Assembly (NCBI GenBank): GCA_900170005.1
Contig: LT827128.1
Span: 2,972,168 to 3,036,167 of the forward strand
Direction: 5' to 3'
Source: Gordonibacter massiliensis (ex Traore et al. 2017)
Lineage (GTDB): Bacteria > Actinomycetota > Coriobacteriia > Coriobacteriales > Eggerthellaceae
Length of the DNA: 64,000 nt
Positions 2,227 to 12,961 of this stretch are shown in pieces (within the stretch, counting starts at the first letter, position 1; the number at the start of each line of letters is the position of its first letter). The notes beneath the pieces were generated by a model. That model was not told where the DNA came from and did no database searches. It worked only from the letters and a program-made list of their open reading frames with translations. The translations under genes and the position numbers were made by a program.

Positions 2227-3026
2227 AGACGTGTCCGATATGCCGGGCGCGCACGTTCGACGACGCGGAGGTGTGCTACGGGTGCATGCACCGTTTCGAT
2301 AGCGAGCCGGTGCGTCGGCCTGCGGTCGAAGAGGACGTTTGGGAGCCCGACGAGGCGGTGACGCGGCCCACGATCGGCGATGCGGCAGCGGGCGAAGAGG
2401 CTCTCGGGGAGGAGCGGCATCCTGCTCGCTCCCGTCCGGCCACGCGCCTCGACTTGGTGGAAGCCGCAGGTCGTGCGGAGACGCGTCCGGTGGACGGAAA
2501 GGAGCCGGAACGCGAGGGGAAGCACGCCTCGCCGGGCGCCGGGCGGTCGCCCGCGCGAGCGCGGCCCGAGGCGGGTCTTGCGCCGCAGCGTGCCGAGCAG
2601 CACCGGGCGAAGGCCGTGCGCTTCGACGACGGTGCGGGGCGGGCGCTGCCGGCGTCTCGCGCGGCTCCGGCCGTGTTCGACGGCGCCGGCTGGATCGTGC
2701 GCTTCGAGTTGCCGGGATCCGCCGCCTCTTCGCTCGAGCCGCTCGACGGTGGGACATGCGCGCATGGGGCGGAGGATGGGCGCGACGCGGCAGCGTGCTC
2801 CCTGGTCGTCAGCATCTGCCCGATGCGAGCGGACGCGGTGCCCGCCGACGGCGCGTCGGCGCGAGGGGCGAGGACGTTGGAGCTCGGCGGCATGCGGGGT
2901 GCAAGGCCGGCAGAGCCCGGCGGCGTGCGAGCCGCGCAGGCCCTCTTCGCCAGTTCTGAGCCGAAGCGGCGCGCCGGGTTCGCGGGCGCGACGCCCGTCG
3001 CAGCGGGCGAAGGCGGAAAGTCGTGA
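2223..3026 (+). CDS. Zinc-ribbon protein with disordered central region
   Basis: A 267-residue protein that starts with a zinc-ribbon knuckle: CPIC near residue 4 and CYGCMHRF near residue 19 supply four Cys ligands. The middle is Arg/Glu/Ala-rich and probably disordered. A possible folded patch around residues 160-210 (WIVRFELPG) resembles an FHA- or beta-rich segment, but I cannot assign it. There is no membrane segment. It sits between DUF192 and the prepilin peptidase, overlapping both by 4 bp, so it is made with the pilus machinery. A regulatory or scaffold role is a guess from the zinc ribbon and context. Confidence 0.65.
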   Translation: MKTCPICRARTFDDAEVCYGCMHRFDSEPVRRPAVEEDVWEPDEAVTRPTIGDAAAGEEALGEERHPARSRPATRLDLVEAAGRAETRPVDGKEPEREGKHASPGAGRSPARARPEAGLAPQRAEQHRAKAVRFDDGAGRALPASRAAPAVFDGAGWIVRFELPGSAASSLEPLDGGTCAHGAEDGRDAAACSLVVSICPMRADAVPADGASARGARTLELGGMRGARPAEPGGVRAAQALFASSEPKRRAGFAGATPVAAGEGGKS

Positions 3027-3919
3027 GCGCCTCGATGGTCGCTGCATTCGCGGTCGTCGGCGGAGCTCTCGGATGGTTCGCCGTACCCGGTGCGAGCGAT
3101 GTGCTGCTGCGCCGGGCGTGCGCCCGCGCCGACGCCTGGTGGCGCGACTCGCTGCAAGCCTACCGGGCCTTCAAACGCGAGCACCCCGACGTCGAGCCCT
3201 CGAGCTCGGCGCGCGGAGTCGAAGGGGCGGTGGGCATATGGCGCGACGAGGCGTTTTCCGCCGGTCTGGCGGGGTCGCTCACACAGGAGCGGTTGCGATC
3301 GCTTGCCTCCGCCGGGTTCAAGGTCGACGGGTTGGCCGCGGCGGGCACCGAAGAGAGTCGCCGCCTGCGTTGCTCGTTTCGGGCGCGCAAGCGGGATCGC
3401 GCGCTTTGCGCGCTGGCCCTGGCCGCTGCGGCGGCGACTGCGGCGGCGTTCGTTTCGAATGCGATCGCCGCCGCGTTGCTCGGCCTGTGCGCCGCGGCTA
3501 TGGCCGTGGCGATGGTGTGCGACGCGCGGGCCCGCATCATCCCGCTCGAAGCGTGCGCGCTCGTCGCGCTGGGGGGCGCGGCCTTTCAGGCGGCGGTGCG
3601 GGGGCCGGAAGGCCTTGCCGCCGGGGCGCTGTTCGCGCTCGTCGTGACGGGAGGATGCGCGCTGGCGAACCGCCTGTTGCGCGTGCGCTGTCCCGGCGGT
3701 GCCGTGGGGCGCGGGGACGTGCGGTGCATGGGCGCGCTGTCGTTAGCCACCGGCGCCGGCGCGGCGTGCGGCTTCGCGGCGTGCTACGCGCTTGCGGGTC
3801 TCGTGGCCCTGGGCGGATGCGCGATGCGCCGGTTGAAGCTGGGCGACGGGATGCCCATGGCGCCGTTCCTGTCGGCCTGGCTGGCTTGCGGGGCGGCGGC
3901 GAGCGTGGTGCTGGCGTAA
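3023..3919 (+). CDS. Prepilin peptidase, A24 family (TadV/CpaA-like)
   Basis: This polytopic membrane protein of 298 residues has the two catalytic Asp motifs of A24 aspartic peptidases. The first is in VCDARARIIP (about residue 168) and the second in the GxGD signature GRGDV (about residue 232). Helices flank both. The first 130 residues (one N-terminal helix, then a soluble stretch) are longer than in minimal TadV proteins. In Tad systems this enzyme cleaves Flp prepilins and TadE/TadF pseudopilins at the membrane. It starts at a GTG overlapping the previous stop. An 84-bp gap with a good RBS follows before the pilin gene. Confidence 0.85.
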   Translation: MSASMVAAFAVVGGALGWFAVPGASDVLLRRACARADAWWRDSLQAYRAFKREHPDVEPSSSARGVEGAVGIWRDEAFSAGLAGSLTQERLRSLASAGFKVDGLAAAGTEESRRLRCSFRARKRDRALCALALAAAAATAAAFVSNAIAAALLGLCAAAMAVAMVCDARARIIPLEACALVALGGAAFQAAVRGPEGLAAGALFALVVTGGCALANRLLRVRCPGGAVGRGDVRCMGALSLATGAGAACGFAACYALAGLVALGGCAMRRLKLGDGMPMAPFLSAWLACGAAASVVLA

Positions 3920-4003: not shown

Positions 4004-4234
4004 ATGAAAAAGGAAAACAACCTGGTGAAATGCAGCAAGCTGAGAGCGCTCGCCGTGCGTGGCGAAGAGGGCGGCGGATCCGAGATCGTGCAGACGGTCA
4101 TCGTGCTCGGCTTCGCCGTGGGGCTGGGGGCGGCGCTCATGCTGCTGCAGGGCAACATCCAGACGGCCATCACCACGGCCGGCACGAACATCACGGACAT
4201 GTTCTCGAAGGTGACGTCCGGTGCGGCCAAGTAG
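4004..4234 (+). CDS. Flp-like pilin subunit (type IVb)
   Basis: A 76-residue prepilin. A 26-residue polar leader ends in GGG, followed by SEIVQTVIVLGFAVGLGAAL, a hydrophobic helix with Glu at +2. A short tail rich in Thr, Asn and Ala follows. Size and layout match Flp major pilins cleaved by TadV. An AAGAAAGGA ribosome-binding site lies just upstream. It follows the only clear gap in the operon (3920-4003), which would allow separate regulation or higher expression of the major subunit. The next gene also carries a pilin-like helix, so the major/minor assignment rests on size. Confidence 0.8.
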   Translation: MKKENNLVKCSKLRALAVRGEEGGGSEIVQTVIVLGFAVGLGAALMLLQGNIQTAITTAGTNITDMFSKVTSGAAK

Positions 4235-4730
4235 GCGGGTCGAACGGGGCGGGAGCGCCGTCGTGGCCGTGGTCGCCATGCCCATCCTGCTCACGTTCCT
4301 GTTCGCCGCCATCGACTTGGGGCGCGTCGTGTTTTTGGGTTCCGAGGCGGGCACGGCGGCTCATGCCGTTTGCCGCCGCGTGACGACGCGCCCCGCATCG
4401 GCGTCCTCGCCGGACGAGCTGCGCGAGGCCGCGGTGGAGGCGGCTCCGTCGCTCGCCGGCGAGGGGCTGGACCTGTCCATCGACGTTGACGTGGGCGACG
4501 TCGAGGAATGCGCGCTCGCGTACCGGCTGTACGACGACGAGGCCGGCTCGTTCCTCTCCCGCACCGTCCGCACGCGCACGCGACCGGTGGAGGCGACGGT
4601 CGCCGTGAGCGGCCGCTATCTGACCCCGCTCGGCGCGCTGCTTTCCAAAGGGGCGGGCGAGGCGGCGTTTCGCTGCTCGGCGCAGGCGCGCGGCTCGATC
4701 GACGAGACGGCGGAGGGAGCGGGCGCATGA
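4221..4730 (+). CDS. TadE/TadF-like pseudopilin
   Basis: This 169-residue protein begins with a short basic segment and GGSAVVAVVAMPILLTFLFAAIDLGRVVF. The helix followed by D-x-G-R is typical of TadE-like proteins. The rest is a soluble domain with two Cys (in AVCRR and EECAL) that could form a disulfide. The GTG start overlaps the pilin gene's 3' end by 14 bp, so translation is probably coupled. A pilus tip or assembly role is expected from the family. It could also be called TadF. Confidence 0.75.
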   Translation: MRPSRRVERGGSAVVAVVAMPILLTFLFAAIDLGRVVFLGSEAGTAAHAVCRRVTTRPASASSPDELREAAVEAAPSLAGEGLDLSIDVDVGDVEECALAYRLYDDEAGSFLSRTVRTRTRPVEATVAVSGRYLTPLGALLSKGAGEAAFRCSAQARGSIDETAEGAGA

Positions 4731-5248
4731 GCGCGCCGCGAAGGCTTCGCACGTTGCGGGCTTTGGAGCGGGGGAGCGAGGTCGTGCAGTCGGTGGTCGC
4801 CGTGTCGCTCGTGCTGCTGGCGGTGTTCGCGGTGGTGCAGGTGGGCGGCATGATGCTGTCCATCAGCCGGCTCACGGCCGATCTTTCCCGCGCCTGCCGG
4901 CAGATGGACACGGCGGGCCTCGCGCTCGCCGCCGATCGGGAGCGCTTCGTGGCCGAGGAGGTGCTCGGCGCGGCGACGCAGTTGAAGCCCGAGCTGCTGC
5001 AGGTTCGAAACGTGAGGATGTCGGCGGCGGTCGAAGAGGGTGCGGGGCAAGCGCCCGGGCAGGGAACAGCTTCGGATGCGGATGCCGGGGTCTTGCAGCG
5101 AACGGACGCCGCGCGCGTGTCGTTCGACGTGGCGTACGAGCTGCCCTCCTTGGCGGCGTTTCCCGGGCTCGCCCATCGGACGATCGCGCGGCATGTGGTG
5201 TGCGAGCACGTGGAAGGCCGGGTCGTGGAAGTGGGGGTGGGGCCGTGA
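4727..5248 (+). CDS. Pilin-like/TadE-like protein
   Basis: A 173-residue protein. After a basic N-terminus it has GSEVVQSVVAVSLVLLAVFAVVQVGG, which parallels the GSEIVQTVIV of the Flp-like pilin at 4004. It is probably processed by the same peptidase. The rest is soluble, with a beta-rich C-terminal portion. The start at ATG 4727 overlaps the previous stop by 4 bp; the open frame upstream to 4508 only overlaps the preceding gene. It is likely a minor pilin of the Tad system. No closer family can be given by eye. Confidence 0.7.
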   Translation: MSAPRRLRTLRALERGSEVVQSVVAVSLVLLAVFAVVQVGGMMLSISRLTADLSRACRQMDTAGLALAADRERFVAEEVLGAATQLKPELLQVRNVRMSAAVEEGAGQAPGQGTASDADAGVLQRTDAARVSFDVAYELPSLAAFPGLAHRTIARHVVCEHVEGRVVEVGVGP

Positions 5249-5919
5249 GCTGCGGGATGACGCGCGTCGCGGCCCCGCATGCTGCGGGGCAGGGCGGCCG
5301 GCTGCTCGAGCCGGGCGAGCGCGGATCCATCGCGCCGCTTGCGGTGATGGCGGCGCTTCTGCTGTTCTCCGTACTGGCGTTCTCGGTGGACCAGGGCATC
5401 GCCTGCGCGGTGAAGACGGGGCAGGAGAACGCGCTCGATGCGGCGCGCGACGCCTGCTTCGATGCCTCGTTCGCGCTGGCGGCGAAAAACGACGAGGACC
5501 CTGGTCTCGCAGTTGCGCGCCGCCTTGCGGAAACGCTGCGCGTGGAGGGCTTCCCGGGGGAGGTCGACGTGTGGTTTTACGAAGTGCCGAAAGAGGACCT
5601 GCCGGCTTCGCGGCGCGTTTGGGGCATCGCGGTGCAGGTGCGGGATCAAGCGCCCACGGTGTTCGCGCGCGGGTTCGGCGTCGCGTCGCTGCCGGTGGCG
5701 TCGAAGCGCGTGGTGGTGGCCGAGCCGTTCGCCGGGTCGGAGGTGTGGCGCCCCGACGTTGCGGGCGGCGAGACGTTCGAGCTGCGTGCAGGCGCCGAGG
5801 TGTCGGCTTTGGTGCGAGCGAGGCTCGCGCGCCTTGACGAATGCCCAATCGAATTGGAGCGCGAGGTGCGCGCCGCCGTCGCGGCGGCGAGCGGGGCGCC
5901 CGAGAAGGAGGAACCATGA
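5245..5919 (+). CDS. Tad-locus pseudopilin/TadG-like N-anchored protein
   Basis: This 224-residue protein has one N-terminal hydrophobic helix in ERGSIAPLAVMAALLLFSVLAFSVDQG (about residues 25-51), followed by a soluble extracytoplasmic domain. The 'ERGxxAPL' leader is the style of TadG/TadE-like proteins, though a von Willebrand A domain as in full TadG is absent. The GTG start at 5245 overlaps the previous stop. The stop overlaps the ATG of cpaB. It probably serves the pilus as an exported accessory subunit. Confidence 0.65.
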   Translation: MSCGMTRVAAPHAAGQGGRLLEPGERGSIAPLAVMAALLLFSVLAFSVDQGIACAVKTGQENALDAARDACFDASFALAAKNDEDPGLAVARRLAETLRVEGFPGEVDVWFYEVPKEDLPASRRVWGIAVQVRDQAPTVFARGFGVASLPVASKRVVVAEPFAGSEVWRPDVAGGETFELRAGAEVSALVRARLARLDECPIELEREVRAAVAAASGAPEKEEP

Positions 5920-6818
5920 TCATGCAACGAGCAAGGGAGCGGGCGGGTGGCGCGTCCGGCTACGCCAGCCGCGAGAGCGCGGGCCCGGCGACGGGCGGCG
6001 CGTTGGGTTCTGCGACCGAACGGCAGGAGCGGCCCCGCCGATCGCGCGGATCTTCCGCCGCGCGCGAGGTGCAGGATCCGCAAAAGGCGAAGAGCTTGGC
6101 CGCCGTTGCGGCGGTGTCGGTCGCGGTGGCCCTGGTAGCTGCTGCATACGGGACGTGGGCGGCCCTGTCCGCGCAGGCGACGGTGGCCGCCGCGGGTGCC
6201 GACGCCCAGCCGACGCTGGTCGCGGCCGCCGACGTACGCGCAGGAGACGTGCTCGCGGCGTCGTCGTTCGAAGTGCGTTCGATCCCGCGCAGCCTGCGCG
6301 TGCAGACGGCGCTCGGGGCCGACGCCCTCGAGGGAGGCGCGTCGTTGCTCGGCCAGCGAGCGCTCGTAGACATGCCCACGGGCACGCAGGTCACGCCTGC
6401 GGCCGTTTCGGGCCGTGCCGACGGTGCGCGCCTGTCGGCGGTGCTCGCGGCCGGCCGGCAGGCCGTCACCGTGGCCGTCGATGCCGAGTCGGGGCTCGCC
6501 GGGCAGCTGCGTCCGTCCGACCGCGTGCGGGTGGTGGCCCTGGAAGGCGCGGCGTCTGGAGAGGTCCTCCTGGCAACGATCTGCGACGACGTGCGCGTCG
6601 TTTCGCTCGACGGCGACCGGGTGGGCGAAAGCGGGACGTACGCGTCCGTGACGCTGGAGGTGACGCCTGATGAGGCCGACGCCGTTCGGGCCGCGCAATG
6701 GGCGGGGAAGGTGAGCCTCGTGCTCATGCCCGCGTTCGCGGAACCCGCGCAGGAAGACGCCTCGCCGGATACGGCGGCGGACGGCGCGAACGAAGCGGAG
6801 GAGGCCGTCGATGGATAG
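5916..6818 (+). CDS. cpaB: CpaB/RcpC-like pilus assembly protein
   Basis: A 300-residue protein with a 70-residue polar, basic cytoplasmic N-terminus and a single helix (about 70-90, AAVSVAVALVAAAYGTW). An SAF-type domain follows, beginning at TLVAAADVRAGDVLAASSFEVR. The next region, about 175-265, contains VTVAVDAESGLAGQLRPSDRVRV, a RcpC-type segment. CpaB/RcpC is an anchored extracytoplasmic component of Tad pili. Start 5916 has a strong AGGAGGAA site and overlaps the upstream stop. The C-terminus is Asp/Glu/Ala-rich. No secretin (RcpA/CpaC) is present, as expected for a monoderm. Confidence 0.85.
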   Translation: MIMQRARERAGGASGYASRESAGPATGGALGSATERQERPRRSRGSSAAREVQDPQKAKSLAAVAAVSVAVALVAAAYGTWAALSAQATVAAAGADAQPTLVAAADVRAGDVLAASSFEVRSIPRSLRVQTALGADALEGGASLLGQRALVDMPTGTQVTPAAVSGRADGARLSAVLAAGRQAVTVAVDAESGLAGQLRPSDRVRVVALEGAASGEVLLATICDDVRVVSLDGDRVGESGTYASVTLEVTPDEADAVRAAQWAGKVSLVLMPAFAEPAQEDASPDTAADGANEAEEAVDG

Positions 6819-8130
6819 GACGCTCGAGCGCGCGCTCAAAGCGGCCGTGCGCGACGAGGTGGCCGCGAAGCTGGGCGGCGGTGCAGCGGGGCCCGACCAG
6901 GTGAAGGCGTTCGTGGTCGAGGCGGTCGAGACGTTGCGGCTCGACTACGGCGCGCATCTGGAGCCGGCTGAGGCGGACGCGCTCTGCCGCGCGATCGTCG
7001 ACGACTTCCTCTACTACGGCCCGCTCCAGCCGCTGCTTGAAGACGGAACCATCACCGAGGTGATGGTGAACGGCGGCGGCGTCGACCTTGCCGATCCGGC
7101 GCTGTCCTATTTGCCCCCTATCGTGTACGTGGAGCGGGCGGGCAAGCTGGAGTACCGTCCCGACGTCGCGTTCGACGATGCGGGGCACGTGCGTCGGATC
7201 ATCGACAAGATAGCGGAGCAAGCGGGCGTTCGCTGCGACGAGGCGCATGCCATGGGGTGCGCCATGCTGCCGGGGGGCCGGGCGCGCGCCACGTACGTCG
7301 TGCCTCCGCTCGCCCCCGACGGACCGGCGCTCAACCTGCGCATGTTCAAGGAAGACCTCATGAGCATGGGCGACTTGGAGCGGGCCGGCGCACTCACGGC
7401 CGCCATGTCGGATTTCCTGCGTTCGGCCGTGGCGGCGCGCTGCCCCATTGTCATATCGGGCGGCACCGGATCGGGCAAAACCACGCTTCTCAACGCGCTT
7501 TCCGAGTTCATTTCCCCTGGCGAGCGCGTGATCACCTTGGAGGACACGCCCGAGTTGCGGCTACGCACGCCGCACACGGAGCGCATGCAGACACGCGAGG
7601 CGAACGTGGAGGGCGAGGGGGCGGTGGGCATGCGCGAGCTGGTGGCCATAGCGCTCAGGCGTCGTCCCGACCGCATCATCGTGGGCGAGTGCCGAGGCGC
7701 GGAGGCCTACGACATGCTGCAGGCCATGCAGACCGACCACCCCGGTTCCATGACCACCGTGCATGCGAACGACCCTGGCAACGCCATCAGCCGCCTGCGC
7801 ACCATGGTGGGCTACGCGGACGGCGACCTGAACCGCGAGGTCATCATGCAACAGATAGCCGAGTCGCTGTGCGGTGGGCTCGTCGTGCATGTCGAGCGCC
7901 TGCAGGACGGGAGCCGGCGGGTCACGAGCATCGTGGCCGTCGACCCGTTGCCCGAGGGCGGAACGGTCATACCGCGCGCCGAGCTGTTCGCCTTCGATGT
8001 GGAAGGGGTGGACGACGACGGGTGGGTGATGGGCGCGTGGCGGGCGCGCGGCATCCAGCCGCAGCACATCAAGGAGCGCATGAGGGCCGCGGGCGTCTGG
8101 TACGACCCGGAATGGTTCTTTTCGACGTGA
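6811..8130 (+). CDS. tadA: Tad pilus secretion ATPase TadA/CpaF
   Basis: This 439-residue protein is a GspE/VirB11-type hexameric ATPase that powers Flp pilus assembly. It has an N-terminal domain with ITEVMVNG near residue 75, and Walker A GTGSGKTT near residue 218. The Asp box lies around ITLEDTPELRL. Walker B/His-box sequence follows (RRRPDRIIVGECRG, then HPGSMTTVHANDP). All catalytic elements are present and the length is typical. ATG 6811 overlaps the end of cpaB by 8 bp. The downstream gene starts at or just after its stop, so TadA and TadB are co-expressed. Confidence 0.93.
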   Translation: MDRTLERALKAAVRDEVAAKLGGGAAGPDQVKAFVVEAVETLRLDYGAHLEPAEADALCRAIVDDFLYYGPLQPLLEDGTITEVMVNGGGVDLADPALSYLPPIVYVERAGKLEYRPDVAFDDAGHVRRIIDKIAEQAGVRCDEAHAMGCAMLPGGRARATYVVPPLAPDGPALNLRMFKEDLMSMGDLERAGALTAAMSDFLRSAVAARCPIVISGGTGSGKTTLLNALSEFISPGERVITLEDTPELRLRTPHTERMQTREANVEGEGAVGMRELVAIALRRRPDRIIVGECRGAEAYDMLQAMQTDHPGSMTTVHANDPGNAISRLRTMVGYADGDLNREVIMQQIAESLCGGLVVHVERLQDGSRRVTSIVAVDPLPEGGTVIPRAELFAFDVEGVDDDGWVMGAWRARGIQPQHIKERMRAAGVWYDPEWFFST

Positions 8131-8165: not shown

Positions 8166-9101
8166 ATGGTGTACATAACGGTATCGACCGCCATCGCGGC
8201 GGCATGCGCCTTCCTTGCGGCGAAGGTGCTGGCCTTCATCAGGGAAGGTCGGCTGGAGCAGCGCAGGCGCGAAGCGCTCGTCGGCTCGAGGGGGCAGGCC
8301 GGGCGACAGGAGACGGGCGCCCGATCGGAGGGCAGGTCCCAGGCGGGCATCGAGCGCGACACGCCGCTCGCCAAGCGTCTGCACGCTGCCGGCATTGGCA
8401 TGGCTCCCCGCCGGTGGATCGCGCTCGTTGCCGGTGCGAGCGCGGCGACGGGGTTTTGCCTTGCGGCGGCAAGCGGCATCGCGGCGCTCGGACCGGTGGC
8501 AGCGGCGGCGATTCTCGTTGCGGCTCGGTTGCTGGTGCGCCGACGCTCGCGCACGCGAAGCGACCTGCTCGACGTCCAGCTCGCCCATGCGCTTCCGCAG
8601 ATCGCGGCCGGCCTGCGCGGCTCGCTCACGCTTGAGCGGGCGCTGCGCGTCGCCCTCGTGCATATGGACGACCCGCTGCGCGGCGAGGTGGCGCACGTGC
8701 TGGCCGACGCGACGTACGGCATGCCCTTGCACGAGGCCCTCGAGGCGATGGCGCGGCGTACCCAAAGCGCGGACGTGAAGACGCTCGCCTCCGCGACCAG
8801 GATGCGCCAGGGGAGCGGCGGCAGCGTGGCAGCTGCCCTGGCCATGATCTCGTCCCGCGTGAACGCCCGCTTGAAAGCGGCGCGCGAGCTCAAGGTCGAG
8901 GTGGCCGGAACGCGTTTGGCCAAGTGGTTCGTCGCGGGTGCCATGCCCGTCATATTTTTCGTCATGTACGCGACGAACGCCGATTTCGCCCGGTTCTATG
9001 CGACGGAGCCGCTCGGCTGGGCCGTGCTCGGCATCGCGGCGGTCATGGAGGCGGCCGGCCTTGCGATGGCGCATGCGGTCACGTCGCTCGATCGGCGATA
9101 G
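8166..9101 (+). CDS. tadB: Tad pilus inner-membrane platform protein TadB
   Basis: A 311-residue type II secretion F-domain protein. It has an N-terminal helix (1-22), a polar loop, paired helices at about 80-125, the T2SSF soluble bundle with QLAHALPQIAAGLRGSLTLERAL, and C-terminal helices at about 255-305. Together with TadC it forms the membrane platform for the TadA ATPase. I prefer ATG 8166 because AGAGGAGG sits 8 bp upstream. An in-frame GTG at 8127 would overlap the tadA stop in the ATGA-like style used elsewhere and add 13 residues. Confidence 0.87.
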   Translation: MVYITVSTAIAAACAFLAAKVLAFIREGRLEQRRREALVGSRGQAGRQETGARSEGRSQAGIERDTPLAKRLHAAGIGMAPRRWIALVAGASAATGFCLAAASGIAALGPVAAAAILVAARLLVRRRSRTRSDLLDVQLAHALPQIAAGLRGSLTLERALRVALVHMDDPLRGEVAHVLADATYGMPLHEALEAMARRTQSADVKTLASATRMRQGSGGSVAAALAMISSRVNARLKAARELKVEVAGTRLAKWFVAGAMPVIFFVMYATNADFARFYATEPLGWAVLGIAAVMEAAGLAMAHAVTSLDRR

Positions 9102-9136
9102 CGACGGCGCGCAAACGGAAAGCGAAGGGGATTCAG

Positions 9137-9382
9137 ATGGAAGGTTCGTGGCTGGCGATCATCGTGCTTCTGGCGTTCGGGTGCGCGGCGGGGTGCGTCG
9201 CCTACGAGGGGCTGGTGAGGCGGTACGCGCCGCCGCGCGTCGAGCGAGCGGCGGGTTCCGCTGCAGGGGCTTCGCCGGCACGCGGGGGCGCGCCGGTGAA
9301 ACCGGTTCCGCGGCGCATCGCGGTGCGCCCACGCGTTTCCTCGCTGCGGCCGGACGGCGCATCGAGCGGGTGCTCCCCATGA
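9137..9382 (+). CDS. Short membrane protein, probable N-terminal part of TadC
   Basis: An 81-residue open frame with a good GAAAGCGAAGGGG ribosome-binding site. It has one hydrophobic helix (residues 4-22, LAIIVLLAFGCAAGCVAYEGL) followed by a basic, Pro/Arg-rich tail. Full-length TadC proteins start with such a helix and basic loop. The next frame begins directly with what would be the following TadC segment. Its TGA overlaps the downstream ATG (9379). It could therefore be a natural split subunit, or the 5' half of a tadC gene with a frameshift near 9330-9375. In the downstream frame, RRIERVLP just before 9379 also looks coding. Confidence 0.6.
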   Translation: MEGSWLAIIVLLAFGCAAGCVAYEGLVRRYAPPRVERAAGSAAGASPARGGAPVKPVPRRIAVRPRVSSLRPDGASSGCSP

Positions 9383-10086
9383 CGCGAGCCGACGGCGATT
9401 CCTACCGCACCCTGATCATGCGGGCCGGCTGGCGCCTCGAACCTGAGACATGGCGCGCCGCGCGCATCGTTTCGGCTGCCGGATGCGGGGCGTTGGCGTG
9501 TGCGTCCTCCCTGACGATGGGCGGTGCTACGCCGACGGTGGCATGTGCGGCAACGGCGGTGGCGGCCGTTGCCGGCTGGACGGCGCCGCGCATCGTGCTC
9601 GCGCGCGCCATCGCGCGTCGACGCCGGCTGGTCGAGGCGCAGCTTCCCGACGCCATGGAGCTTCTGGGTATAGCCATCGCGGCCGGGTCGCCCGTGGAGC
9701 AATGCTTCCGCGAAGTCGCCCAGAACCTGGAACAGCCTCTTGCGGACGAGTTCGAGGCGGTGGACCGCGAGGTGAACCTGCTGGGGCATTCCCGCGAGCA
9801 GGCGCTCGACCATCTGGCTGCCCGCTGCGAGAGCCGGGACGTCTCGGCTTTTGTGGCGCAGCTCGCGCAGGCGGTGAGCCAGGGCTCGTCCATCGCCGAA
9901 GGCCTGTCGTCCCAAGTCGCCCTCGCGCGTGAAACGGCGCAGGCGGCGGCGCTCGAGCGCATCCGCAAGATGCCCACGAAGCTGGACGTGATCCTGTCGT
10001 TCTGCTTCCTGCCTCCGACGATCGCGCTCGTCGTGGTGCCGACGGTGGTGGATCTGCTGAAGTTTTTGAACGACACGCTGCAATAA
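9379..10086 (+). CDS. tadC: Tad pilus platform protein TadC (T2SSF domain)
   Basis: This 235-residue protein has the TadC layout apart from the first helix. RTLIMRAGW is followed by two helices (about 30-75), then the T2SSF core (QLPDAMELLGIAIAAGSPVEQCF, later FVAQLAQAVSQGSSIAEGL). A C-terminal helix (VILSFCFLPPTIALVVVPTVV) ends just before the terminus. It pairs with TadB at the membrane. ATG 9379 overlaps the previous stop by 4 bp. The frame remains open upstream into tadB-overlapping sequence, so it could once have been fused to the 81-residue protein at 9137. Confidence 0.8.
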   Translation: MTRADGDSYRTLIMRAGWRLEPETWRAARIVSAAGCGALACASSLTMGGATPTVACAATAVAAVAGWTAPRIVLARAIARRRRLVEAQLPDAMELLGIAIAAGSPVEQCFREVAQNLEQPLADEFEAVDREVNLLGHSREQALDHLAARCESRDVSAFVAQLAQAVSQGSSIAEGLSSQVALARETAQAAALERIRKMPTKLDVILSFCFLPPTIALVVVPTVVDLLKFLNDTLQ

Positions 10087-10097
10087 GGGGGTTCGCT

Positions 10098-12245
10098 ATG
10101 GGAACGGAACAGGGAAGTCGCGGGTCTGCATCTAGCGGAAGACCGCGGTTCGAAGGAAGGGGCGGCACCCCGTCGCGCGCCGAGGCGAGCGGCGTTTCGC
10201 CGAGCTTCGAAGCGCGTGCCGCGCGGGCAGGCTTCGATGCGGACGGTGCGTCGCCCGATGCGGGCGCGGTAGCGGAATCTTCTGACGTTGCGCGACCGGG
10301 CACGCCCCCGTCGTGCGGACGGAGCATCGCGCGGCGCACGTTTCTGGGATTGGGCGGGGCGGCCGCGCTTTCGTTGCTGTTGGCGCCGCGCCTGGCGTGG
10401 GGCGGCGTGGGCGGCGGGAGTTGGGGAGAGGTGGGCGCCGTGGCGCACCCCGGGTCGCATTTCGGGTACGACGGCGGGTGGGGCTACTCCAGCAACGGGT
10501 GCGTGTGGCTCGCCGTGAGCTGCAACGCCACGGTCGGTCACATGACCGAGCTGTTTCTGGAGATGAGCGTGACGTCTTACTACGCCAACGGCGGCATCTG
10601 GTCGCCCACGTGGTTCACCGACTATCCCGACACGCACGTCGATTCGTTCGTGCGCAACGAATCTGGGGCGTGGATGTCCTCCACGAGCGGTTTCTACGAC
10701 ACCGTCTACGACTGCGCTTCGTTCCAGGGTCCCTACGCCACTCATGCGTTGCGCGTGCGTCGCGAGGCGTGGGACTGGTGGGCTTGGGCGGGCGTGAGGG
10801 CCTGGTGCGATTCCCCCGACAGCGCCTACGGCATCGACACGACCGCCGAGGCTTCGCAGCTCATTCCCCGTCATCCGCTGGCGGACGATCGCTCATGGCA
10901 AGGGAAGATCGCGACCCTGCGCCCCGAGGCCGCGCCGCATTTGCGCCTCGACGCTTCCGAGGGCGGCACCGCGAATGGCACTAACATGCTGGCGTGGAGC
11001 GCGTCCGACTACACGAACCAGCATTGGCTTGTGCTCACGAGCGCGCAAGGCCGCACGTGCCTTGTTCCCGTGCACACCGGCAGCGCCCCCCTTTTCGCCG
11101 ACGTGTCCAGCAACGATTGGAACGACGGCGACAACGTGCACCTCTGGCAGGGCACCGGCGGCTGGAACCAGTCGTTTTGGCTGCATGATCTGGGCACGGG
11201 TTACCATCTTATCGTGCCGGAGTGCTCGGGCTGCGCGTTCGACCTCTACGGTGGCGGCCAGGCGAACGGCACGAACGTCGTGCAATGGAACTGTTACGGG
11301 AACTGGGACAACCCCAATCAGCACTGGATGTTGGAGGAACCGCTGTTCCGCGAGCGGGAGCCGGGCGCGATGACGCTTTCCGGCATCGACGGGGCGGGGG
11401 AGGCGGAGCCGGGGGCCGTGCTCGCTCCCGCGGATCCCGATCAGGCGTGCCTGCCGCGCAACTACCCGGGAACCGCCGGAATGTTCTACCGCTACGCCTG
11501 GTATCGGGGCGTTGCGCCGGGGGAGCGCACCGTGCTCGCACGCGAGGCGAGCGAAGACCCTGCGTACGAGGTGACGGAGGCCGACGAGGACGCGTATCTC
11601 ACCTGCGTCGTGAAGGCGCACGCGCGCTACGGGGACGTGCCGTACCGGGGCGAGGTGGCAACCGCCTCGGTGCGGGTGCGCTCGCGCCATGCTCGCATCA
11701 GGTTCTTCGCGGACGGCGCGGGCGAGCCGTGCTTCGTCGACGAGGCGGAGCGCGGATGCTCCTACGAGCCGCCTCGGGCGGCGCAGGCTGCCGCCGCGAA
11801 ACCCGGTTGCGCAGGGGTCGACGGCTGGTATTGCGATGCGAGCTGCGCCGAGGCCTACGTCGACGGCTCTTTGGTCGAAGGCGATCTCGACCTGTTCGCG
11901 CGCAACCGCGTGGAGCTGTCGTACGCCATGGCCGGCTCCTCGTGCCTGCTGGCTTCCTCGCATGCGTACTTCCTCGACGAAGCCGCCGAGCATCCGTTGC
12001 TCGATCCGCAGGTTCTGCTCCCGCCGCCCGCGTCGCTCCATTACGGAGACCGCGTGACGTTCGCCCGCGGAGCGAGCGCGTGGTACGAGGACATGGGGCG
12101 CATGCGCGAGGCGTCCTGCGCACCAGGCGTCTACGCCGACGCCGACGCTTCCGGTCCGCTCATGCGCTCGGCCCGCCTCGCCCGAAACACCGTGGCGTAT
12201 CTGGTCTGGCGCACCCCCGCCTACGACGGCATCGCGCTTTCATGA
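10098..12245 (+). CDS. Tat-exported protein with ricin-type lectin region
   Basis: A 715-residue protein. A long polar N-region of about 76 residues precedes a twin-arginine signal, ARRTFLGLGGAAALSLLL (RR at 79-80), ending near AWG. An aromatic-rich domain (about 110-260, with WWAWAG) follows. Residues 280-412 carry ricin B-type features: repeated NGTN, Asn-Gln-His-Trp ('TNQHW', 'PNQHW') and W-N-Q-S-F-W. Two beta-rich C-terminal domains with several Cys pairs follow. It begins 11 bp after tadC and is probably co-transcribed. Inference: a surface or secreted carbohydrate-binding adhesin used with the pilus. There is no sortase motif or C-terminal anchor. The 76-residue n-region is far longer than usual. 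Confidence 0.7.
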   Translation: MGTEQGSRGSASSGRPRFEGRGGTPSRAEASGVSPSFEARAARAGFDADGASPDAGAVAESSDVARPGTPPSCGRSIARRTFLGLGGAAALSLLLAPRLAWGGVGGGSWGEVGAVAHPGSHFGYDGGWGYSSNGCVWLAVSCNATVGHMTELFLEMSVTSYYANGGIWSPTWFTDYPDTHVDSFVRNESGAWMSSTSGFYDTVYDCASFQGPYATHALRVRREAWDWWAWAGVRAWCDSPDSAYGIDTTAEASQLIPRHPLADDRSWQGKIATLRPEAAPHLRLDASEGGTANGTNMLAWSASDYTNQHWLVLTSAQGRTCLVPVHTGSAPLFADVSSNDWNDGDNVHLWQGTGGWNQSFWLHDLGTGYHLIVPECSGCAFDLYGGGQANGTNVVQWNCYGNWDNPNQHWMLEEPLFREREPGAMTLSGIDGAGEAEPGAVLAPADPDQACLPRNYPGTAGMFYRYAWYRGVAPGERTVLAREASEDPAYEVTEADEDAYLTCVVKAHARYGDVPYRGEVATASVRVRSRHARIRFFADGAGEPCFVDEAERGCSYEPPRAAQAAAAKPGCAGVDGWYCDASCAEAYVDGSLVEGDLDLFARNRVELSYAMAGSSCLLASSHAYFLDEAAEHPLLDPQVLLPPPASLHYGDRVTFARGASAWYEDMGRMREASCAPGVYADADASGPLMRSARLARNTVAYLVWRTPAYDGIALS

Positions 12246-12267: not shown

Positions 12268-12296
12268 TTGAGTAATACTAACTTTAGCGTTATAGT
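12268..12296 (+). promoter_or_regulatory. Predicted sigma-70-type promoter of hicAB
   Basis: TTGAGT (12268-12273) and TATAGT (12291-12296) are separated by exactly 17 bp. The start codon of hicA lies 15 bp beyond the -10, with GAAAGGAAAG as ribosome-binding site. The promoter region is AT-rich against GC-rich surroundings. Confidence 0.65.
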
Positions 12297-12310: not shown

Positions 12311-12493
12311 ATGCCTCCGAAACCGTTCGAGATATATCGTCGGCTTTTGCGAGAGGGTTGGCATGACGATGGCTGCACGGGCTCGCACCGAAAGCTTTCC
12401 AAGGGCGACGCAAGGATCGTATTGCCGATGCATCGCGGAGAGATGGCCAAGGGAATGTGGGAGAGCATCAAGAAAGAAGCGGGTTGGCGGTAA
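12311..12493 (+). CDS. hicA: HicA-type mRNA interferase toxin
   Basis: A 60-residue protein of full HicA length. It contains GSHRKLSKGDARIVLPMHRGEMAKG and ends in IKKEAGW, the characteristic double-stranded-RNA-binding-like fold with the catalytic His in GSH (H26). HicA toxins cleave mRNA independently of the ribosome when not bound by HicB. The gene is 21 bp upstream of its HicB partner and behind a clear promoter. The toxin is first, as usual in hicAB operons. Confidence 0.9.
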   Translation: MPPKPFEIYRRLLREGWHDDGCTGSHRKLSKGDARIVLPMHRGEMAKGMWESIKKEAGWR

Positions 12494-12514
12494 GTCTCAT
12501 CGGAAGGAGCAGAC

Positions 12515-12961
12515 GTGAGGTACACCTATCCAGCACTCATTGTCAAGGACGAGTGGGTTGGCTACTGTGCTTACTTGAACGACTTCGGCACCGTCACACA
12601 GGGCGATGATATCCAAGATGCGGTGGAGATGGGCGCCGATGCCCTTTGGATCATGATCGACGATTACCTCCAGTTGGACAAGCCCTTGCCGAAGCCGACC
12701 TACCCCGAAGAGCACGAGGGCCTGCTCGTTGCCATTTCGGTGGACGTTGCCACGGAACGCGGGCTGCTCACCACGAAGATGGCGGCGGGTTTGCTGGGCG
12801 TGAGCGACTCGCGCGTGCGGCAGATGGTGTGCTCGGGCCAGCTTGCCTCCAAGAAGATCGGCCGCGACAACTACGTCTACCTGTGGAGCGTCCGCGAGCG
12901 CCAGGCGAACCCGCCGAAACCGGGCCGCCCCAAGAAGAAGGCCCTCGCGGAGCAGTCGTAG
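12515..12961 (+). CDS. hicB: HicB-type antitoxin with C-terminal HTH
   Basis: This 148-residue protein starts from a GTG preceded by GGAAGGAG. Residues 1-80 form the HicB RNase-H-like fold (YPALIVKDEWVGYCAYLNDFGTVTQGDD, then AVEMGADALWIMIDDYL). Residues 90-130 form a helix-turn-helix (TTKMAAGLLGVSDSRVRQMV, an excisionase-like arrangement) for autorepression of the operon. The tail is Lys/Pro-rich. It neutralises HicA. The coding frame is intact. The 3' end converges with the ABC permease gene on the opposite strand, 43 bp away. Confidence 0.9.
   Translation: MRYTYPALIVKDEWVGYCAYLNDFGTVTQGDDIQDAVEMGADALWIMIDDYLQLDKPLPKPTYPEEHEGLLVAISVDVATERGLLTTKMAAGLLGVSDSRVRQMVCSGQLASKKIGRDNYVYLWSVRERQANPPKPGRPKKKALAEQS

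Follow-up and report, generated by a model that had tools for sequence, protein, structure and literature searches.

A putative lectin with a predicted Tat signal ends a Gordonibacter Tad pilus operon and shares its C-terminal module with other Tad-linked proteins

The stretch of 64,000 nucleotides analyzed here (the window; contig LT827128.1 of Gordonibacter massiliensis) carries an operon, referred to as Tad2, whose last gene encodes a putative carbohydrate-binding protein. Judged by its gene content, the operon upstream of this terminal gene is a Tad locus, made up of the following genes (window coordinates):

3023–3919 (+), prepilin peptidase (A24) of Tad2; Pfam match just below the cut-off
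4004–4234 (+), Flp-type pilin candidate of 76 aa; read from the sequence, with no family match
4221–4730 (+), TadE-like minor pilin 1; named by position and sequence reading
4727–5248 (+), TadE-like minor pilin 2; named by position and sequence reading
5257–5919 (+), short TadG-like minor pilin of 220 aa; assigned from its position and sequence
5916–6818 (+), CpaB; TIGR03177 above the cut-off
6811–8130 (+), TadA ATPase; T2SSE, 8e-43
8166–9101 (+), TadB; T2SSF
9106–10086 (+), TadC, with an unsettled start codon; T2SSF

The TadE and TadG proteins of Tad2 are short and carry no grafted module. Directly upstream of Tad2, beyond the edge of the window, is an older Tad locus (Tad1; its TadA1 is at genome position 2966303, within locus L126, genome 2960000–2979000), and the two Tad systems thus stand in tandem. 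The spacing between Tad1 and Tad2 is comparable, at about 12 kb, in Eggerthella-type genomes. Downstream of the terminal gene are a promoter-like site (12268–12296) and a HicA-type toxin gene (PF07927 above the cut-off) with a HicB-like antitoxin (12311–12958).

The terminal gene starts with ATG in the same direction as tadC, 11 bases behind its end at 10086, and encodes 715 aa. Both this arrangement and the repeated NGTN (residues 292–295 and 389–392) and NQHW (residues 307–310 and 407–410) signatures had been reported in an earlier sequence-only reading and are confirmed by the coordinates and motif positions. The protein is encoded once in the genome, and its named relatives are from Gordonibacter sp. 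28C (86%), Gordonibacter pamelaeae (79%) and Senegalimassilia anaerobia (46%). Its layout is as follows:

10098–12245 (+), terminal gene of the Tad2 operon: Tat signal, N-terminal beta-sandwich, ricin-type trefoil, Ig-like domain, C-terminal module
10098–10331 (+), variable polar n-region, residues 1–78; neither length nor sequence conserved
10317–10403 (+), predicted Tat signal, residues 74–102, GRSIARRTFLGLGG...LAWG
10422–10880 (+), N-terminal beta-sandwich domain with no family named, residues 109–261, pLDDT about 72
10899–11336 (+), ricin-type beta-trefoil, residues 268–413; profile matches
11343–11690 (+), Ig-like domain, residues 416–531
11688–11927 (+), C-terminal module part 1: InlB-B-repeat-like beta-grasp, residues 531–610
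11928–12242 (+), C-terminal module part 2: tail, residues 611–715, which varies with the Tad backbone; putative docking domain

The ricin-type region proposed from the repeats is supported by profile comparisons. The Pfam family RicinB_lectin_2 (PF14200) matches the protein with 61.5 bits (E 1.3e-16), where 25.6 bits is the cut-off, and a profile of 8 family members aligned across the three repeats of ThreeFoil, a designed trefoil (3pg0, residues 38–162; E 4.7e-17). Chance as an origin of the repeat signatures was ruled out by these scores. AlphaFold2, run on a shallow alignment (8 rows), gave pLDDT <50 for the trefoil region (259–411), so the trefoil claim rests on sequence, and at that level a fold lacking the trefoil was not indicated. 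In the alignment of the family, a pocket-type combination of Asp, an aromatic residue and Asn-Gln was seen by eye in repeats 1 and 3. The trefoil is a putative sugar binder. The domain resembles ricin-type beta-trefoil lectins and CBM13 (PF14200, PF00652) in its three QxW-type repeats. Unlike other lectins of these families, the protein combines a Tat signal, a place in a pilus operon and fusion to a module seen nowhere outside Eggerthellaceae except in one weak relative in the order.

The predicted Tat signal was likewise recovered: an RR motif at residues 79–80 (RRTFLGLGG) is followed by a hydrophobic core and an AWG/G cleavage-like site around residues 102/103, and the genome encodes TatC. 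The polar extension of about 76 residues described earlier is present (78 polar residues ahead of the RR motif), but in relatives this stretch ranges from 18 to 78 residues (RR start at residue 19–79) with no conserved sequence, and a functional role for it was rejected for lack of conservation. The predicted mature N-terminus, GVGGGSWG, follows a pattern conserved among lectin forms (G-[VA]-G-x-G-x-W-G). We found no LPXTG-type sortase motif or C-terminal membrane helix in any of the 25 family proteins tested, and the terminal-gene protein shows no class III signal, N-terminal pilin helix or pilin family match, family members having a Tat or Sec-like signal instead. Thus, the protein would be either released or held non-covalently.

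In the full structural model, residues 430–708 are predicted with pLDDT near 90 and the N-terminal sandwich with about 72. Naming the sandwich was abandoned, as GH2-type and arrestin sandwiches both match at Z about 9 and the fold is too common; matches of the whole model in Foldseek (TM about 0.1) were discarded as meaningless. The C-terminal module, modeled on its own, reached pLDDT 94. Its first part resembles the InlB B-repeat 2y5p (Z 9.3, rmsd 2.1 Å over 71 residues, with unrelated entries starting from 6.4), and thus has the fold of the Listeria-Bacteroides repeat (PF09479). It differs from PF09479 repeats in that the window sequence falls below Pfam detection and is then followed by a tail. 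This tail had no match among those listed for the joint model of the module, a single search that is no proof of a new fold, and a profile search of the PDB with the whole module returned nothing credible.

Residues of about 530–715 are common to the last genes of other Tad2 operons, whereas the front halves of these proteins are unrelated. By this sequence comparison, the terminal-gene protein is a member of a family defined by a C-terminal module some 185 residues long (the InlB-B-repeat-like domain plus the tail). We surveyed 138 Eggerthellaceae genomes, counting full-length matches with E <1e-50. By this measure, the module is present in 18 of the 138, and these are exactly the genomes whose TadA shares at least 67% identity with that of the window (in G002, a TadA fragment); co-occurrence with Tad loci across the family was thus borne out. 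In Tad2 loci, the module gene is always on the same strand as, and downstream of, tadA and tadC. Across all Tad types, the module occurs in 20 of the 21 genomes with at least two detected TadA genes and in 1 of the 117 others (Fisher p 7e-22, not corrected for relatedness). It is hardly ever found outside Tad loci; a remnant at a distance from a Tad locus was seen in one genome (G070). Orthologues with the trefoil are all in Tad loci and have a Tat signal, and none was found away from Tad and lacking the signal. Samples of the class and the phylum yielded no strong copy outside Eggerthellaceae; a single weak one came from the order. The arrangement, suggested earlier for gut Actinobacteria, is one of some Eggerthellaceae and not of gut Actinobacteria at large.

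The heads carried by the module are a trefoil lectin, Flg_new/InlB-type repeats, a SpaA-like domain, or have no identified family. Gordonibacter and three further genomes (G007, G117, G118) combine the N-terminal sandwich with the trefoil, the Tad2 loci of G016, G123 and G124 have a degenerate trefoil, and Eggerthella-type loci (G035, G097–G099, G011, G110, G027) have InlB-type repeats. A gene of ~190 aa with an N-terminal membrane segment lies between tadC and the terminal gene only where the head consists of InlB repeats (L037, L038, L039, L112, L113, L117). Since the end piece stands almost only beside Tad genes while the front piece is exchanged, the terminal-gene protein is probably a detachable pilus grip. 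A Tat-type RR motif is found in all 13 intact trefoil-headed proteins and a Sec-like signal in all 12 with other heads, including one (G408) in which an RR pair precedes the core in an unconvincing Tat setting. The export signal is thus predicted to go with the head and not with the pilus, other heads on the same operon type being Sec-like. As the trefoil proteins probably form a single lineage, this correlation reflects few independent events. The earlier picture of a Tat-exported, pilus-linked lectin holds as regards the lectin, the signal and the Tad linkage, but the lectin is one of several heads, and Tat export as a trait of the pilus is not upheld.

In one trefoil-headed gene (L035 of G007, 10100–10310), a stop after the RR motif interrupts the Tat signal region; it falls in a stretch like a transposon-end sequencing adapter and is probably an assembly artefact. 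Two proteins of ~980 residues with a Tat-type signal and a weak trefoil-like match (L125, 3602–6547; L129, 12516–15467), one in a Gordonibacter sp. and the other in an Eggerthella-type genome, follow the same general plan near yet another Tad locus. Recent head swapping within Tad2 had been hinted at by a genus with both head types (G027 vs G117/G118). It was ruled out by a tree of the Tad core, in which whole operons differ and the head types need only 2 changes; vertical descent thus explains the Tad2 pattern, and heads have not been swapped often.

A third Tad type (Tad3; G076, G077, G099, G098, G408) has a module-bearing gene directly before the prepilin peptidase. These copies of the module are full length but weaker matches, and their heads are SpaA-like or without identified family. 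One of them (L123 of G098, 11050–11624) is apparently frameshifted within the module, and in one genome the neighbors of Tad3 are a VirB4/TraG-like ATPase and a CHAP-domain protein, an arrangement resembling that on a conjugative element (L122, 401–8364). Senegalimassilia (G016) has a Tad2 operon, whose terminal protein is a degenerate trefoil, and also another Tad locus of a different kind (L036), which encodes a lectin. The head of this lectin is 51% identical to that of the window protein, and such a head is absent from Tad3 loci; the best matches of its TadA, TadC, TadG and CpaB are to Tad3. Its first C-terminal domain is Tad2-like (105.6 vs 59.8 bits), whereas the last 109 residues, the tail, score 20.4 bits to Tad2 vs 30.1 to Tad3, with Tad2 controls at 98–142. 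In the tail tree, L036 grouped with Tad3 on a branch with 99/100 support, although its own branch is long (4.6) and two long branches meet there; keeping the tail with the lectins gave an AU p of 0.053. These comparisons suggest that in the chimera the tail left the Tad2 group together with the backbone. From this one case, they further suggest a tail matched to its pilus, with the head as cargo.

Our preferred explanation, to which we assign a probability of roughly 0.55, is that the terminal protein is a secreted non-pilin adhesin docked by its tail on its own Tad2 pilus. The trefoil head would fold before export, as the Tat signal implies, and signal peptidase would then free the protein outside the membrane. 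The C-terminal tail would hold it on the Tad2 pilus, probably at the minor-pilin tip, and the trefoil would offer a sugar-binding surface to glycans. The basis for tail docking is the domain make-up, the signals, the Tad linkage, the varied heads on one module and the natural chimera; operon linkage alone could mean co-regulation.

An unlikely alternative is a soluble carbohydrate-binding protein secreted for itself, for example to capture mucin or polysaccharide, and merely co-transcribed with the pilus. The signal peptide and the missing wall anchor would suit such a protein, and secreted enzymes and lectins often contain trefoil domains; the near-confinement of the module to Tad loci, however, argues against it, as do the non-lectin heads in the same place on the same module. 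We consider it less probable still that the protein belongs to the wall or envelope and assists the Tad pilus in crossing the cell wall or anchoring in it, with the trefoil binding the cell's own wall polysaccharide. Monoderm cells are not known to have a secretin, which would leave room for such a role, and every Tad2 operon includes the gene, with the extra gene beside some terminal genes. A structural part would, however, predict one conserved head, whereas the heads are unrelated, and Tad1, the other Tad system of Eggerthellaceae, lacks a module gene (none was found in the stretch of it that was read). Finally, the conserved mature N-terminus could be the docking element and the module only a stalk or spacer, in analogy to the aromatic N-terminal segment that docks TcpF and CofJ (PMC9565799), but this is improbable, as the N-terminus tracks the head and not the Tad type, is kept on a non-Tad2 backbone in the L036 chimera and is replaced by another in Sec-type family members.

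Docking by the tail, as predicted here, is comparable in principle to that of TcpF of Vibrio cholerae and CofJ of enterotoxigenic E. coli, proteins secreted by type IVb pili and carried by the minor-pilin tip (PMC9565799), which are the nearest precedent. The features in common are a pilus operon that encodes a protein which is not a pilin, has a cleavable signal and lacks a pilin helix. TcpF and CofJ dock by an N-terminal peptide in diderms, whereas the family described here has a shared C-terminal module, a Tad pilus, a monoderm host and, for trefoil heads, a Tat signal. Tad pili with interchangeable variable domains are known from the adaptable tips of the Myxococcus xanthus Kil/Tad system (KilLMN, TadEFG-like; PMC12075869). 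In that system a minor pilin (TadG/KilN) bears the variable domain as a fusion, whereas Gordonibacter would secrete it as a protein of its own and has a short TadG. The modular type IV pilins PilB and PilC of Streptococcus sanguinis present a lectin or vWA module on a monoderm pilus (PMC8179133) and have a class III signal and a pilin helix, in contrast to the Tat signal and missing pilin part of the Gordonibacter protein.

We tentatively extend this reading to a two-part clip-on system in Eggerthellaceae, in which a Tad-type-specific tail would be combined with an exchangeable head exported by the route suited to its fold (Tat for the trefoil, Sec for the others). The same plan may serve chromosomal pili as well as Tad loci beside conjugation genes, where mating contact would be possible.

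Our literature search returned no paper joining a Tad pilus, a separate tail-bearing adhesin and Tat delivery, which is not proof of absence. New relative to the precedents are the separate protein, the shared C-terminal module and the Tat signal for trefoils. How the Tad pili of monoderm gut bacteria adhere is poorly known, and the minor pilins here are small. The family, which appears to include Eggerthella species, would make Tat delivery of folded proteins to a pilus testable, and its recognizable tail would be a handle for predicting to which pilus each adhesin belongs.
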